Positions 2,417 to 22,175 of a stretch of 64,000 bases of DNA are shown piece after piece; the stretch's first letter is position 1, and each line of letters begins with the position of its first letter. A model generated the notes under the pieces. It was given only the letters and a program-made list of their open reading frames with translations. It was not told the origin of the DNA and ran no database searches. This DNA is from an uncultured Pelagibacteraceae bacterium. Lineage in GTDB: Bacteria; Pseudomonadota; Alphaproteobacteria; Pelagibacterales; Pelagibacteraceae. The stretch covers positions 1 through 64,000 of the forward strand of contig CACHGH010000005.1 in NCBI GenBank assembly GCA_902579215.1, given 5' to 3'. A program made the position numbers and the translations under genes.

Positions 2417-3148
2417 ATGTCAATAAAAACAACGATAAATTACTCCCCTAATTTTTACCCCAAAAAACGTGCGAAAAAAGAAATTATTTACTTAGTTATT
2501 CACTATACGGGTATGAAAAATGAAAAAGCTGCATTATCTAGGCTTACCAAAATACAATCTCAGGTTAGCTCTCATTATTTGATAAAAAAGGATGGAGAAA
2601 TAATTCTCTTAGTTCCAGATTTATATATTGCTTGGCATGCTGGCTTTTCATCGTGGAAAAAAAAACGTTTTTTAAATACCAGTTCAATTGGAATTGAGCT
2701 TACAAACCCAGGTCATGAATTTAATTATAAAAAATTTTCTAAAAAGCAAATAAATTCACTAATTAAATTAAGTAAATTTTTAATAAAAAAATATAAGATA
2801 AATAGAAAAAATATATTAGGACACTCTGATATTTCCCCTGAAAGAAAGAAAGACCCAGGTGAAAAATTTCCTTGGGAATATTTATCTAAAAAAAGTATAG
2901 GAGTTTGGCATAATTTAAATAAGAATAAGCTTATAAATTTAAGATTAAAAAAGTGTAATAATTTTGAGAAAAAGAAATTTTTAATAAATTTGTACAAGTT
3001 TGGATATCCCAAAAAATCAATAAAAAAGATGAAATTTGAAAAATATAATAGATTTATTATTAAAGCTTTTCAAAGAAGGTTTAGGAAAGATCTTATAAAC
3101 GGTATAATTGATCAAGAATGCTTATTAATAAGCAAAAATTTGATTTAA
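2417..3148 (+). CDS. N-acetylmuramoyl-L-alanine amidase (Amidase_2, AmiD/AmpD-like)
   Basis: The 243-residue protein matches the Amidase_2 zinc amidase family. It has VIHYTG with zinc ligand H29, the SSHYLIKKDGEI strand pair, the WHAG motif, GIELTNPG, and GHSDISPERKKDPG, which supplies H136 and D146 as the other likely ligands. These enzymes cut the MurNAc-L-Ala bond of peptidoglycan or of anhydro-muropeptides during recycling. Residues from about 180 on form a helical, Lys-rich C-terminal part that resembles the small peptidoglycan-binding domain of AmiD. No clear signal peptide is present, so a cytoplasmic (AmpD-like) role is possible. Confidence 0.85.
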   Translation: MSIKTTINYSPNFYPKKRAKKEIIYLVIHYTGMKNEKAALSRLTKIQSQVSSHYLIKKDGEIILLVPDLYIAWHAGFSSWKKKRFLNTSSIGIELTNPGHEFNYKKFSKKQINSLIKLSKFLIKKYKINRKNILGHSDISPERKKDPGEKFPWEYLSKKSIGVWHNLNKNKLINLRLKKCNNFEKKKFLINLYKFGYPKKSIKKMKFEKYNRFIIKAFQRRFRKDLINGIIDQECLLISKNLI

Positions 3149-3162
3149 TTTATACTTTTTAC

Positions 3163-3190
3163 TTGAAAAAAAACATTTAACCAATAGATT
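3163..3190 (+). promoter_or_regulatory. Sigma70-like promoter for RNase P RNA
   Basis: TTGAAA (3163-3168) is followed after 16 bp by TAGATT (3185-3190). The expected start lies about 7 bp downstream, at 3196-3197, exactly where the P1 stem of RNase P RNA begins. The agreement between promoter spacing and RNA 5' end is the main support. Confidence 0.6.
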
Positions 3191-3196
3191 GAATCT

Positions 3197-3550
3197 GCCA
3201 GATAAACGACTTATCGCTTTATATATTTAAAGAGGAAAGTCCGGGCTCTACAGAGACACGGTGCCAGGTAACGCCTGGCGGGGGCGACCCTAGGGATAGT
3301 GCCACAGAAAACAAACCGCCTCATCAAGGCAAGGGTGAAAAGGTGTGGTAAGAGCACACCGGCTATATTGGTAACAATTAGCGCATGGAAAACCCCACCG
3401 AGAGCAAAACTGAGTAGAGATGACAACGTTGAAAAACAAAAAGCAGTCTTTGGCTAGTCATCTGGGTTAGTTGCTTGAGCTTAAGAGCGATCTTAAGCCT
3501 AGACAAATGATAGGTTTAAAAGACAGAACCCGGCTTATAGTTTATCTGGC
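3197..3550 (+). ncRNA. rnpB: RNase P RNA (catalytic subunit)
   Basis: The RNA component of ribonuclease P, which removes 5' leaders from pre-tRNAs. The ends are set by the 11-bp P1 helix: GCCAGATAAAC (3197-3207) pairs with GTTTATCTGGC (3540-3550). Inside are the universal blocks of bacterial A-type RNA: GAGGAAAGTCCGGGCT near 3232, the GCCAGGTAACGCCTGGCGGG hairpin region near 3262, ACAGAAAACAAACCGCC near 3304, GGTAAGAGCACACCGG, and near the 3' end AGACAGAACCCGGCTTA. The length of about 354 nt is normal. A reverse-strand reading frame inside this RNA (3211-3426) is spurious. Confidence 0.97.
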
Positions 3551-3723
3551 AAACTTATTAACAGCCAAAAATTATATTTTTAAATGTTCTTGTTTTGATT
3601 CAGTATTGAGTCATTTATGTTCTTTGATTTCACCAAGAAGCTAACTTTTATAAAAATTATAATTGACCCCCTATAACCAAAAAGATACCTAAATATTGAG
3701 CACAAAATAGCCAAAATTAATGA
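3551..3723. other. Spacer between rnpB and the mraZ promoter
   Basis: A+T-rich stretch with no convincing gene. A 19-codon frame from an ATG at about 3618 lacks a ribosome site. A TTGACC hexamer near 3664 has no good -10 partner. No hairpin plus T-run clearly terminates rnpB. Confidence 0.5.
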
Positions 3724-3752
3724 TTGACGCATAGGTTGAAAACCCATATTAT
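3724..3752 (+). promoter_or_regulatory. Sigma70 promoter of the mraZ-dcw cluster
   Basis: TTGACG at 3724-3729, a 17-bp spacer, and TATTAT at 3747-3752 make a near-consensus housekeeping promoter. Transcription would start near 3759, leaving a short leader before mraZ (ATG at 3796, preceded by AGGAATTTATGA). The -10 element is overlapped by the CCCA repeats listed separately. Confidence 0.75.
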
Positions 3753-3767
3753 CCCATAAATTCCCAA
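3743..3767 (-). promoter_or_regulatory. MraZ operator (three TGGG repeats, 10-bp period)
   Basis: On the + strand CCCAT (3743-3747), CCCAT (3753-3757) and CCCAA (3763-3767) recur at exactly 10 bp. Read on the other strand they are three TGGGN units separated by 5 bp, the published form of the binding site of the MraZ transcription factor, found upstream of mraZ in other bacteria. They cover the -10 element and start region of the promoter, which fits autorepression by MraZ, encoded immediately downstream. The identification rests on pattern and position. Confidence 0.8.
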
Positions 3768-3795
3768 ATAGGGATTATATAGGAATTTATGAATT

Positions 3796-4254
3796 ATGTT
3801 TTTATCGACCTACGAAAACAAATTGGACAAAAAAGGGAGGGTGTCAGTGCCTGCTAGCTTCAGATCACATCTTTCAAACTTAGGTTATAATGGGGTAATT
3901 TGTTATCCATCTTTTAACAACCAATGTATAGAAGCATGGCCACAAGAAAGAATTGAAAAGATTTCAAATACAATAGATGCACTTAACCCCTTTGAGGATA
4001 AAAAAGATTATTTTGCAACTTCTATTTTGTCCGAAAGCATTAATTTACAATTTGATAGCGAAGGAAGAATTTCATTAACAGAAAAATTATTAAAACATGC
4101 AAAAATAAAAAATAGTATGCTTTTTGTTGGCCAAGGTAAAACGTTTCAAATTTGGGAGCCAACTAATTTTGAAAAATTTAGGGCTCAAGCTAGAAAAAAA
4201 TCAAATTTAAACCGTGCTAGTCTTAAATGGGAAAAACAATTAAATAATAACTAA
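3796..4254 (+). CDS. mraZ: Transcriptional regulator MraZ
   Basis: The 152-residue protein has two tandem SpoVT/AbrB-like repeats. The first is at the N-terminus ([22 protein letters not shown], with the DxKGRVxxPxxxR motif); the second is around residues 82-105 ([21 protein letters not shown]). MraZ is an oligomeric DNA-binding protein that controls the division and cell-wall cluster it heads. It sits first in the cluster behind a promoter carrying its expected operator. It is 11 bp ahead of ftsZ, so it should be co-transcribed with it. Confidence 0.93.
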
Positions 4255-4265
4255 GAGGGGAAAAA

Positions 4266-5744
4266 ATGACAATTAACTTTAAATCACCAGACATAAGAGA
4301 ATTAAAACCAAGAATATTAGTACTTGGAGTAGGTGGAGCCGGAGGAAATGCAATAAACGGGATGATAGACTCCGGCCTTCAAGGAGTAGAATTTATAGCT
4401 GTAAATACAGATGCTCAAGACTTAAAACATAGTAAGGCACATCAAAAAGTTCAGATAGGATTAAATTTAACAAAAGGATTAGGTGCTGGAGCTAAAATAG
4501 ATATAGGTCAAGCAGCAGCCGACGAGTCGCTAAATGATATCATTAATACTCTTCAGGGCGCAAACATGGTTTTTATAACTGCTGGAATGGGCGGAGGAAC
4601 AGGCACAGGTTCAGCACATGTAATTGCAAGAGCGGCAAAAGAACTTAACATACTAACAGTAGGAGTTGTAACTTTACCTTTTTTATACGAAGGACCTTCA
4701 AGAATGAGAAGGGCTCAACAAGGATTAGAAGAACTCAGAAAACATGTAGATACAATTATTGTTATACCAAACCAAAATTTATTTAAAGTAGCAAGTGAAC
4801 AAACAACATTTGAAGAGTCTTTTGAACTTTCAAATGATGTTTTATTGCACGGTGTTAAAAGTATTACAGATTTAATGGTTAGACCTGGATTAATTAATTT
4901 AGATTTTGCTGATGTAGAGTCAGTTATGAGCTCAATGGGCAAAGCTATGATGGGAACTGGTCAGGCTGAAGGAGAGGGTAGAGCTACTAAAGCAGCAGAA
5001 ATGGCTATAAGCAATCCATTAATTGATGATTACACTCTAAAAGGTGCAAAAGGATTATTGGTAAATATTACTGGCGGAAAAGATCTAAAACTTTTTGAAG
5101 TAGATGAGGCTGTAAATAAAGTTCGGGCTGAAGTTGACTTAGATGCAGAATTAATAATTGGTGCAATTACGGATCCGGCTTTAGATGGAAGCATGAGAGT
5201 GTCGATTGTAGCAACAGCTCTTGATGGTCAGCAACCTGAGTCAAAATCAGTTATAAATATGGTTCACAGAATACAAAATCGAAACCCTGGATATTCTGAT
5301 TTTACAAATTTAGGAAATTCGAATTCTTTCAATTTTTCTTCATCTTCAGCTAATACAATTACACAAGGCGCAAACGCTTTGAAGCTTGAAAATGAAGTAA
5401 GCTCAGAGGTTGAGTCAAATGTAGTTTCCTCTAATATAGCAAATGAAGAAGGAATAAATATTCAGCAAAATACAAATGAAAGCGATTCAGTTGTCGCAAC
5501 TACAGAGATAGATAAAAATATTGAAAAAGCTCCTCTTGAAAATTTTCATGTTACAGATGATAAGCCTGAAAATGAGTCTAATGGATTAGAAAACTTTGGA
5601 ATAGAAGAAGAGACACCAGAACTTTTTAATCAAGAGAGTGAAACTACTTCGTCAGAAACATCATTAACTGACAGTTATGATGATCACTCTGAAGATGAAG
5701 ATGATTTAGAAATTCCAGCATTTTTGAGAAGACAAAAAAACTAA
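4266..5744 (+). CDS. ftsZ: Cell division GTPase FtsZ
   Basis: FtsZ is the tubulin-like GTPase that forms the cytokinetic ring. The 492-residue protein has the N-terminal [13 protein letters not shown] nucleotide-contact loop, the tubulin signature GGGTGTG at residues 109-115, and the T7-loop region near NLDFADV. A long acidic Ser/Glu/Asn-rich linker (about residues 345-478) leads to a conserved C-terminal peptide [10 protein letters not shown] that binds FtsA and other tethers. An AGAGGGG ribosome site precedes the ATG. In most proteobacteria ftsZ follows ftsA; here it sits between mraZ and rsmH, while ftsA is over 14 kb downstream and followed by lpxC. Confidence 0.98.
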
Positions 5745-5762: not shown

Positions 5763-6773
5763 ATGATTGCCACCATAATATCGGAAAGAAAAAAACATAA
5801 TCCGGTATTGCTAAATGAAGTTACTAGCATTATTTCCCCTCAATATGGTGGCACATTTATTGATTGTACATTTGGTCAAGGCGGATACACAAGAAAAATT
5901 CTAGACTTTGAGAAAACAAATGTAATCGCTCTAGATAGAGACGAGGATTCAATTAAAATTGCAAACAATATAAAAAAAGGATTTAAAAATAGATTTATTT
6001 TTGAAAATAAAAAATTTAGTGAACTTCACAAACTAAGTTTAAATAATAAAGATATTAAAGCTATAATTTTTGATTTAGGGTTCTCACTAGACCAGATTAA
6101 AAATCAGGATAAGGGTTTGTCTTTTAGTTCAAAAGGAGAACTAAATATGAGATTAGGCTTAAATTCTTTTTCAGCAAAAGATGCAATTAACAAACTAGAG
6201 CAAAAACAATTAGAAGATATATTAAAATTTTTTGGTGAGGAAAAAGAATATAAAAGAATTTCCTATAACATTGTGCATGAAAGAAAAAAAAAAGAAATAG
6301 ACACATCTGGGCTAGTTAGAATTATTGAGTCTTCAAAAAGAAAAAAAAATTATAGAGTTCATTGTGCTACAAAAACTTTCCAGGCATTGCGTATTTTTGT
6401 TAATAAAGAAATTAGCGAACTAATTAATGGTCTAGTAAATGCAACAAAGATATTAAAAAAAAATGGAAAGATTGTTGTTGTAAGCTTTCATTCTTTAGAA
6501 GACAAAATAGTCAAATACTTTTTTAAAAATTTATCTGAGAATAAGAACTCTTCAAGATATGTTCCCAAAATAAATGATAAAATAAACTTATTAAAATTAA
6601 TAAACAAAAAACCTGTAATACCAAGTGAAGCTGAAATAAAAAAAAATCCTTCATCAAGATCAGCCAAATTAAGATCTGCTATTAAACAATATGATACTGC
6701 TAAAATTGAAACAGATATTTATGAAAAATTTGAAAATTTATTAGAAATTGAAAATTATTCAAAAAAACTATGA
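5763..6773 (+). CDS. rsmH: 16S rRNA m4C1402 methyltransferase RsmH (MraW)
   Basis: RsmH N4-methylates C1402 of 16S rRNA in the P-site. The 336-residue protein starts with the family pattern HNPVLLNEV, has SAM motif [17 protein letters not shown], then [22 protein letters not shown], and the conserved [15 protein letters not shown] and [16 protein letters not shown] blocks. [11 protein letters not shown] near the C-terminus is also typical. It occupies its usual place just upstream of ftsL and overlaps it by 4 bp (ATGA), so the two are probably translationally coupled. Confidence 0.96.
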
Positions 6774-19412: not shown

Positions 19413-20079
19413 AAAAAGTAAATTATTTCTGTATTTTGTAATGTTATGCATGTTAACTACAATTAGTAATAAAAATTTTACAGATAAAAAAAAATCAATA
19501 ATACAAATTAAAAATATTGAAGTATCAGGACTTTCTAAAAAAAATAATATATCGATAATAGACGATTTAAACTATTTACTTTCTCAAAATATTTTTATGA
19601 TAGATGAAAGAAAAATTATAGAAGTTTTAAATCAAAATAACTTAATTCATTTTTTTAATGTTAAAAAAAAATATCCTGATACCGTTAAAATTGATCTAAT
19701 CAAAACAGATTTTATTGCCATTACTACGTATAATAATGAAAATTTTTTTATAGGATCGAATGGTAAATTAATTGTATATGATAATTCAAAAAAAAATTTA
19801 CCTTTTGTTTTTGGAAGTGTTGATTTTGAAAAATTTATTACTTTTAAAAAAATAATTGAAAAATCAAATTTTAGCTTTAAAAATATAGAATCAGTATATT
19901 TTTTCCAATCTAATAGATGGGACATAAAAACTAAAGATGATTTAATCATTAAACTTCCCGAAAAAAATGTAAGCGATGCATTGAATATTGCTTATAAAAT
20001 TCAAATGAATGATATTTTAAAAAAAAATAAGATTATTGATTTAAGAATATCAAATCATATTATTATATCAGATGAATGA
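19393..20079 (+). CDS. ftsQ: Cell division protein FtsQ-like (POTRA)
   Basis: A 228-residue bitopic protein: a short cytoplasmic start, one membrane helix at about residues 11-26, a POTRA-like stretch (IQIKNIEVSGLSKKNNISIIDDL) and a beta-rich C-terminal domain. FtsQ scaffolds FtsL and FtsB and links the early ring to FtsWI. Sequence conservation is low and this copy is short, so the call leans on topology and on its place between ddl and ftsA. The start at 19393 lies inside ddl; a later ATG near 19441 would remove most of the membrane helix. Confidence 0.85.
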   Translation: MLQQIDKKSKLFLYFVMLCMLTTISNKNFTDKKKSIIQIKNIEVSGLSKKNNISIIDDLNYLLSQNIFMIDERKIIEVLNQNNLIHFFNVKKKYPDTVKIDLIKTDFIAITTYNNENFFIGSNGKLIVYDNSKKNLPFVFGSVDFEKFITFKKIIEKSNFSFKNIESVYFFQSNRWDIKTKDDLIIKLPEKNVSDALNIAYKIQMNDILKKNKIIDLRISNHIIISDE

Positions 20080-21191
20080 AAAATTTTAATGTATATATTG
20101 ATTTTGGATCTTCTAAAATAAGAACTGTAGCTTTTAATAAAATTGAGCAAAATAAATTTTATATTACTGAATGTAAATGTTTAAGTAGTTTTAAAGTTAA
20201 CCAATTAAGTTTAACACACTCAGAAAATATAATTAAAAAAACTATTTTAGAAATTGAAAAAAAAACAGGTGAGCATTTAAATGATATAAGTTTAATGGTT
20301 GATAGCCCAGACTCATTATTAATCAACGTATCAAGGTCAAAAAATATAGAAGGAAAAAAACTTAAAAAGGAAGAAGTTGAATATTTAATACAGGATACAA
20401 AACAACAAATTATTAAAGCATATAAAGATCAACATATAGTTCATATTTTGGTTACAAATTATAATGTGAATGGAACTAATTATAGTTTTATTCCATTAAA
20501 TATTAGTTGTAATCAATTATATATAGATATTGCTTTTATTTGTTTTCCAAAAGTTTTTGTTAACAGTTTAGAAAAAATATTTTCTAAAAATAATATTTTA
20601 GTTAACCAAATAATTTTTTCAAGCTATGCCAAAACATTGAGCTATAAAAAAAAAATTGAAACTTCTAAAAAAATACTTTTTGTAGATATAGGTTATGAAA
20701 AAACATCTATAATTTTTTATAATGAGGAAAATTTTGCTGGTTTTAATATTTTGCCAATTGGTGGAAACCATATTTCTAAAGATATTTCTAAAATTTTACA
20801 TGTGCCATTAGACAAAGCTGAGGAAATAAAATTAAATTTTGATAAAGGGGAATTTAAAAATACCGCAGATTTAATAAAAAAAATAGTTTTTGCAAGAATA
20901 GAAGAAATACTAGAGTTAAGCCTTAATTATTTACCATCTCAAGAAAAAGAGAATGATCTAAATAAAATTAAATTGATTTTAACAGGTGAGGGATCAAAAA
21001 TACTAGATACAAGATTTAAAGAAAGTATATCATTTTCTAATGATATAGATTTATTGGAAGAATCAACCTTAGATATATGTGAGTCTGGACTGAATTTAAA
21101 TAAGGGCTTAGGTAATCAAGAAGTTACAGTTATTCCAAAAAAACTAGAAAAAAAAGGATTTTTTGAGAGACTTTTCCACTTTTTTAAATGA
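20076..21191 (+). CDS. ftsA: Cell division actin-like protein FtsA
   Basis: FtsA is the actin-fold membrane tether of FtsZ. The 371-residue protein opens with the phosphate-1 motif YIDFGSSKIRTVAF, has an SHS2-like insert, the phosphate-2 motif KKILFVDIGYEKTSII, and LILTGEGSKI for adenosine. It ends in an amphipathic helix, KKGFFERLFHFFK, the usual membrane-targeting tail. It overlaps ftsQ by 4 bp. The gene normally next, ftsZ, is absent here, and 63 bp separate ftsA from lpxC. Confidence 0.95.
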   Translation: MKNFNVYIDFGSSKIRTVAFNKIEQNKFYITECKCLSSFKVNQLSLTHSENIIKKTILEIEKKTGEHLNDISLMVDSPDSLLINVSRSKNIEGKKLKKEEVEYLIQDTKQQIIKAYKDQHIVHILVTNYNVNGTNYSFIPLNISCNQLYIDIAFICFPKVFVNSLEKIFSKNNILVNQIIFSSYAKTLSYKKKIETSKKILFVDIGYEKTSIIFYNEENFAGFNILPIGGNHISKDISKILHVPLDKAEEIKLNFDKGEFKNTADLIKKIVFARIEEILELSLNYLPSQEKENDLNKIKLILTGEGSKILDTRFKESISFSNDIDLLEESTLDICESGLNLNKGLGNQEVTVIPKKLEKKGFFERLFHFFK

Positions 21192-21236
21192 TTTGTATTT
21201 TCCTGTAACATTTGTTGTTTTTTAAATTTTTAAGAA

Positions 21237-21252
21237 AGATTTTATAAAATCT
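21237..21252. promoter_or_regulatory. Perfect 16-bp palindrome before lpxC
   Basis: AGATTTTATAAAATCT is a perfect palindrome ending 2 bp before the lpxC start codon, in the place of the ribosome binding site. It contains TATAAA, so it could be a -10 element for a leaderless lpxC transcript, an operator, or both. A chance A+T palindrome cannot be excluded. Confidence 0.4.
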
Positions 21253-21254
21253 CG

Positions 21255-22175
21255 ATGTCAGTTTTAAATCAAAAAACGATAAAAAAAACAATTAAAGTAG
21301 ATGGCGTTGGTCTGCATAACGGAAAAAAAGTTCATATGGAAATTAAACCAGCGCAACCTAATACAGGGATATTGTTTAAAAGAATTGATTTAAAAAATAA
21401 TAATTTAATTATACCTGGAGTCTTTAATGTAAGTAGCGCCTTATACTGTACGACTATTTCTAATAATTTTGGAGCATCAGTTTCTACAATTGAGCATTTA
21501 ATGGGCGCCTTGTATGGAATGGGTATAGACAATGCATTGATTGAGATTGATAATGATGAAGTTCCAATTTTAGACGGTTCTGCAAAAATATATGTTGAAA
21601 AAATAAAAAAAGTTGGAATAGAAAAAAGCGAAGTACCAATTAAAATTATAAAAATCCTGAATACAATTTCACTAAAAGAAGGAAATAAAACTATATCGAT
21701 TGAACCAAATAAAATAAGTCTGGATATAGATTTTGAAATTAAATACGAAAATTCATTTATTGGAAATCAAAGAAATCAAATTAAAGTCTACGAAGATGAT
21801 CTTTCAAACATTTATAACTCAAGAACTTTTTGTTTATTTGAAGATATAGAAAAATTAAAAAAAATGAATTTAGCAAAAGGTGGAAGTTTAGAAAATGCAA
21901 TCGTAGTAAAAGGGGATAAAATTTTAAACCAAGATAAATTAAGAAATAAAATAGAATTTGTTAATCATAAAATACTTGATTGTATGGGCGATTTGTATTT
22001 ATCTGGATATAAAATTATAGGGAAATTGACGTGCTCTCAAGGCGGTCATAAGCTTACTAATCAATTATTAAGAAAAGTCTTTTCTGAAAATTCTAACTTT
22101 TCAATTATTGAAGTTAAAGAGAAGAATATTCCTCATTCTTTTATTAACAAGAATATCCTAGAATCTATAGCATAA
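21255..22175 (+). CDS. lpxC: UDP-3-O-acyl-GlcNAc deacetylase LpxC
   Basis: Zinc enzyme of the committed step of lipid A synthesis, implying this organism makes LPS. The 306-residue protein has DGVGLHNGKKV at the N-terminus, EHLMGALYGMGIDNA (zinc ligand H81), NDEVPILDGSA, FVNHKILDCMGDLYLSG with a second His and the Asp ligand, and the catalytic-loop His in SQGGHKLTNQLL. No Shine-Dalgarno sequence is seen; a palindrome occupies the site. It follows ftsA, where many alphaproteobacteria have ftsZ in between. Confidence 0.97.
   Translation: MSVLNQKTIKKTIKVDGVGLHNGKKVHMEIKPAQPNTGILFKRIDLKNNNLIIPGVFNVSSALYCTTISNNFGASVSTIEHLMGALYGMGIDNALIEIDNDEVPILDGSAKIYVEKIKKVGIEKSEVPIKIIKILNTISLKEGNKTISIEPNKISLDIDFEIKYENSFIGNQRNQIKVYEDDLSNIYNSRTFCLFEDIEKLKKMNLAKGGSLENAIVVKGDKILNQDKLRNKIEFVNHKILDCMGDLYLSGYKIIGKLTCSQGGHKLTNQLLRKVFSENSNFSIIEVKEKNIPHSFINKNILESIA

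Follow-up and report, generated by a model that had tools for sequence, protein, structure and literature searches.

The locus described here raises the question of whether SAR11, which are the most abundant bacteria of the ocean and possess very few regulators, control the synthesis of FtsZ through an operator for the MraZ protein. In a 64 kb stretch of Pelagibacteraceae DNA (the window), three copies of a short repeat surround the -10 element of the mraZ promoter, and ftsZ is the gene that follows mraZ. Positions 3743-3766 very probably constitute a MraZ operator, at which MraZ would repress its own gene by promoter occlusion and FtsZ would come under the same control. A MraZ operator as such is of a known kind; its orientation, its phase relative to the promoter and the gene order around it are what set the SAR11 locus apart from the arrangement in E. 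coli.

Three CCCA repeats interleaved with the mraZ promoter

The array adjoins a genuine mraZ gene, which starts at 3796 behind a promoter of conserved spacing (Table 1). The encoded protein matches solved MraZ chains in a sequence search (E=2e-8) and its two DXXXR motifs, D11-R15 and D87-R91, are both invariant in 18 proteins. Solved structures of the family include 9qlr, 9sx6 and 9qlg, and MraZ proteins characteristically assemble swapped-hairpin dimers into rings. An AlphaFold2 model of MraZ, obtained with 18 close relatives, reached a pLDDT of 50 and a pTM of 0.34 and was set aside for all claims.

Table 1. Features of the mraZ-ftsZ region, in window coordinates
Feature	Position	Strand	Evidence or remark
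RNase P RNA gene, directly upstream of mraZ	3198..3553	+	Rfam RF00010, 296.8 bits
-35 hexamer TTGACG	3724..3729	+	no variation in TTGAC (columns 3724-3728) among 43 dereplicated leaders
MraZ box 1 (predicted; CCCA on +, TGGG on -)	3743..3746	-	invariant in 43 dereplicated leaders
-10 hexamer TATTAT, occupying the whole spacer between boxes 1 and 2	3747..3752	+	always TANNNT-like
MraZ box 2 (predicted)	3753..3756	-	invariant in 43 dereplicated leaders
Expected transcription start, between boxes 2 and 3	3758..3760	+	promoter geometry, 6-8 bases past -10
MraZ box 3 (predicted)	3763..3766	-	invariant in 43 dereplicated leaders
mraZ, 152 aa, two MraZ domains	3796..4254	+	Pfam PF02381, E=9e-25
ftsZ, second gene, 11 nt past the mraZ stop	4266..5744	+	Pfam Tubulin and FtsZ_C
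rsmH/mraW, cluster continues	5763..6773	+	Pfam PF01795

A preliminary description of this DNA had proposed a promoter of the form TTGACG-N17-TATTAT, and the two hexamers are indeed read 17 bp apart, at 3724-3729 and 3747-3752. The repeats that it listed (CCCAT at 3743, CCCAT at 3753 and CCCAA at 3763) are spaced by exactly 10 bp, and the CCCA core is thus a 10-bp direct repeat in three copies, as expected of MraZ box repeats. The claim that the repeats start on the -10 box holds for the T of the first CCCAT, which lies inside the hexamer, but not for the CCCA cores, since those at 3743-3746 and 3753-3756 flank the hexamer exactly, box 1 adjoining it on the upstream side.

The 24-base pattern CCCA-N6-CCCA-N6-CCCA has a single match in the window and a single match in the 1,010,242-base genome, at 0 or 1 mismatch alike, so that a search for further MraZ sites that might form a regulon returned none elsewhere in this genome at either stringency. 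A third-order Markov model built from the window predicts about 0.011 such triples per Mb by chance, both strands counted. The genus-mates that were searched likewise carry one site per genome, located at the mraZ promoter. Among the other genomes scanned, a single 1-mismatch match appeared, in one of five relatives; this extra site was read as chance because a reversed control pattern yields up to two. The promoter hexamers TTGACG and TATTAT taken alone give 4 promoter-like sites against 4.1 expected, which is not above shuffles, and the promoter call is supported by the conservation of TTGAC and of the -10 element at an invariant spacing, not by the hexamer match.

Conservation, orientation and register of the array

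The closest named relatives all belong to Pelagibacteraceae, which upholds the assignment of this DNA to SAR11. The preliminary description had held that MraZ control would be contradicted if related genomes kept the promoter and lost the repeats; in fact, the triple and the promoter are kept together. The CCCA triple is present in 79/79 untruncated leaders from 80 named Pelagibacteraceae, the 80th leader ending at a contig edge after box 1 and being left out of this count. It is also present in 59/60 leaders of a second sample, and in 72/73 leaders once both samples are pooled and sequences more than 80% identical are removed. The sole exception, from another genus of the family (G203), has ACCA in place of box 1 and a -35 element that is closer, and keeps the 10-bp period. 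TTGACN lies 17 bp from the -10 element in all 79 named leaders and TTGAC is found at this spacing in 59/60 of the second set, while the -10 element itself varies (TAATAT in 63 of the 79, TATTAT in 7, TATATT in 4, TATGAT in 3 and others in 2). When 43 dereplicated leaders are aligned, conservation is 100% in TTGAC and in the columns of the boxes, several positions of the spacer ahead of box 3 are less conserved and the flank at 3683-3713 mostly stays at 35-65%. This alignment was anchored on the CCCA triple; the anchoring does not create the invariance of the boxes, because every untruncated leader had the triple.

Arrays of the same kind extend beyond the family. In a sister family of the same order (f2), up to five boxes lie 9/19/29/39/49 bases from the start of the -35 element, which is the register of Pelagibacteraceae, where the boxes are at 19/29/39. 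In the other Alphaproteobacteria, CCCA pairs are present on the coding strand in 52/59 leaders and TGGG pairs in 0/59, and a CCCA pair is found in 0.3% of shuffled leaders. These arrays resemble that of SAR11 in the presence of CCCA on the coding strand, in the 10-bp period and in the overlap with the promoter. They differ in that the boxes are mostly at -4/6/16/26/36 from TTGAC, so that the -35 element itself is a spacer and the -10 element at N17 is TATCCC, of which the 3' half belongs to a box. Relative to these arrays, that of Pelagibacterales is shifted by about 3 bp, leaving the -10 hexamer free. In the other classes of Pseudomonadota, 20 leaders were readable; 11 of them contain a coding-strand TGGG pair near the gene and none contains a nearby CCCA pair, and box orientation therefore differs between Alphaproteobacteria and the other members of the phylum that were sampled.

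The E. coli Pmra MraZ box, reportedly the subject of Eraso et al. 2014, belongs to this second orientation. Like the SAR11 array, it consists of three 10-bp repeats upstream of mraZ beside a TTGAC-type promoter and it is sited at the promoter of the division cluster, the operator role being a predicted one in SAR11. According to positions read from NC_000913, the TGGG repeats of E. coli belong to the coding strand and lie 38/48/58 bases from the start of the -35 element, past -10. In SAR11, TGGG is found on the template strand, the positions are 19/29/39, around -10, and ftsZ is the second gene. Thus, SAR11 does not fit the E. coli-type arrangement.

No description of MraZ sites in Alphaproteobacteria or SAR11 was found in the open-licence literature, though regulon databases may contain one, and in a paper on the R. 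sphaeroides dcw leader a term search found neither repeats nor binding sites mentioned. Within the same literature, neither the inverted orientation in Alphaproteobacteria nor the placement of the core promoter within the array was found described, and the same is true of the re-phasing in Pelagibacterales and of the ftsZ-second gene order.

Probable promoter occlusion by MraZ and its alternatives

The array lies on what is probably the main promoter of the division and cell-wall cluster. As predicted from the promoter geometry, it would span about -17 to +7 and present three MraZ half-sites on a single face of the DNA, each separated from the next by one helical turn. The boxes would fall at about -17, -7 and +3, and MraZ bound there would cover both the -10 element and the start site. 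The product of the first gene would in this way occupy the promoter from which it is made and keep RNA polymerase off it, so that mraZ and the genes transcribed with it would be under negative feedback. We infer that MraZ binds and represses here in SAR11 and that mraZ and ftsZ are cotranscribed, the latter because the gap between them is only 11 nt. The FtsZ level would then be set largely by the MraZ loop, since ftsZ follows mraZ immediately and no second copy was found. Points that count against this reading include the orientation opposite to that in E. coli and the number of boxes, three being at the low end of the range.

The MraZ systems of other bacteria offer precedents for parts of this scheme. 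E. coli MraZ binds and represses its own cluster, as described in two papers (PMC8475190, PMC7761207). B. cenocepacia MraZ shifts, in EMSA, the fragment on which its four repeats overlap the start site (PMC7761207); PmraBc is like the SAR11 promoter in having repeats of 10-bp period near the mraZ start site, and unlike it in that these are four 7-nt GTG-type repeats located downstream of -10 (PMC7761207). The preliminary description had cited both E. coli and Mycoplasma as cases of TGGG repeats with a 10-bp period. This is correct for E. coli, where the repeats are on the coding strand past -10, and incorrect for Mycoplasma, where the site (Fisunov 2016, as given in PMC8475190) is reported to be made of AAAGTG[T/G] direct repeats. 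The Mycoplasma site shares with that of SAR11 the direct repeats at the mraZ promoter, but its unit is distinct from CCCAT/CCCAA and the SAR11 array is not of the Mycoplasma type. The same source states that the M. genitalium MraZ site is the sole copy in its genome and that MraZ represses ftsZ there, and deletion of M. genitalium mraZ increased FtsZ 25-fold in proteomics (PMC8475190).

Among the alternatives, the one that survives best, while still unlikely, is that MraZ binds the array but activates transcription or modestly tunes it in a level-dependent manner, as reported for some other species. The sign of MraZ action is not universal, since overexpression of MraZ in M. gallisepticum was accompanied by increased FtsZ and filamentation (PMC8475190), and in other Alphaproteobacteria the boxes are also found between -35 and -10 and beside -35. 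However, boxes lying over the -10 element and the start site are poorly placed for an activator, and the documented role of MraZ in both E. coli and M. genitalium is that of a repressor. If both box orientations repress, occlusion would be the likely mechanism, rather than a specific contact with the polymerase.

It is very improbable that the CCCA repeats owe their conservation to a role as core-promoter or start-site context, or as a signal in the RNA leader, and not as a protein site. Such a role would agree with the location of the repeats inside the promoter and the expected start, as well as with the conservation of a G-run 4-7 nt past box 3, which forms CCCAAATATGGG in some genomes. However, box 1 is upstream of any transcript made from this promoter, the CCCA triplet is absent from the remainder of the genome, and in the f2 family and the other Alphaproteobacteria the number of boxes (2-6) and their phase relative to the promoter vary while the 10-bp period holds. 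Chance similarity, in favor of which only the chance-level frequency of the promoter hexamers could be cited, has a negligible probability and is refuted by conservation, the triple being found precisely at the mraZ promoter and throughout the genus in the face of the low expectation given above.

The G-run just mentioned (3771-3774) is strongly conserved and reads TGGG, i.e., an inverted box, in 15/79 leaders. It is not a ribosome site, because the start codon is too distant in the longer leaders.

Position of ftsZ and the region around mraZ

The preliminary description had named ftsZ as gene two, and this stands: the gene lies 11 nt behind mraZ and the copy there is the only tubulin/FtsZ match in the genome, which is 83% complete. 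After rsmH, the cluster continues with division and cell-wall genes, and ftsQ, ftsA and an LpxC-like gene, named from their translations and the gene order and not by family search, are found at about 19.4-22.2 kb. There is no ftsZ between ftsA and the lpxC-like gene (20076-22175). A glycine-motif pattern of FtsZ is present within 300 nt behind mraZ in 80/80 named loci, and ftsZ comes immediately after mraZ in every Pelagibacterales genome in which both were located. Most other Alphaproteobacteria for which a single contig lists both genes have ftsZ about 15-17 kb downstream of mraZ. Two further alphaproteobacterial arrangements were seen: in family f9, ftsZ immediately follows mraZ in 4/4 members, and the leaders that were read carry the boxes ACCA, CCCA, CCCA in the Pelagibacterales register; in family f108, ftsZ is 1-2 kb from mraZ in 2/3 members. 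Two nearly complete alphaproteobacterial genomes of 0.9 Mb from family f59 (G177 and G277) have mraZ and no FtsZ match.

We tentatively suggest, as an idea that may well prove wrong, that MraZ has become a one-component FtsZ homeostat in Pelagibacterales and family f9, where ftsZ would have been relocated behind mraZ and the boxes re-phased around the -10 element. Such a homeostat might consist of one regulator, one genomic operator and one promoter for FtsZ dosage, ftsZ having perhaps left its slot between ftsA and lpxC. Transcription of ftsZ may also have other sources. An additional internal ftsZ promoter is conceivable, and read-through from the RNase P RNA gene is possible because a scan of the + strand over 3100-4400 showed no terminator-like site. 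The neighborhood of these genes has a precedent in Pelagibacter HTCC1062, where the RNase P RNA gene was reported in the mraZ-ybjR gap (PMC2704228).

A single conserved predicted MraZ operator together with ftsZ as the second gene offers a concrete and testable control point for the division rate of SAR11. The arrangement also affects how a published growth index is read: the abundance of ftsZ transcripts as a ratio to those of RNase P has been used for Pelagibacterales (PMC13349992), and in SAR11 these two genes are neighbors, with ftsZ probably under MraZ feedback.

Two further observations concern mraZ itself. In isolate AG-365-D19 (L161 5001-6000), mraZ is shortened by a few codons at its end, and the stretch between it and ftsZ is about 190 bases longer. 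In the window, an out-of-frame ATG at 3789-3791, exactly 7 nt ahead of the mraZ start, opens a 22-codon ORF that overlaps mraZ; this ATG is kept in 77/79 named and 61/73 dereplicated leaders, where most neighboring positions vary, and its ORF is a possible translational attenuator of mraZ.
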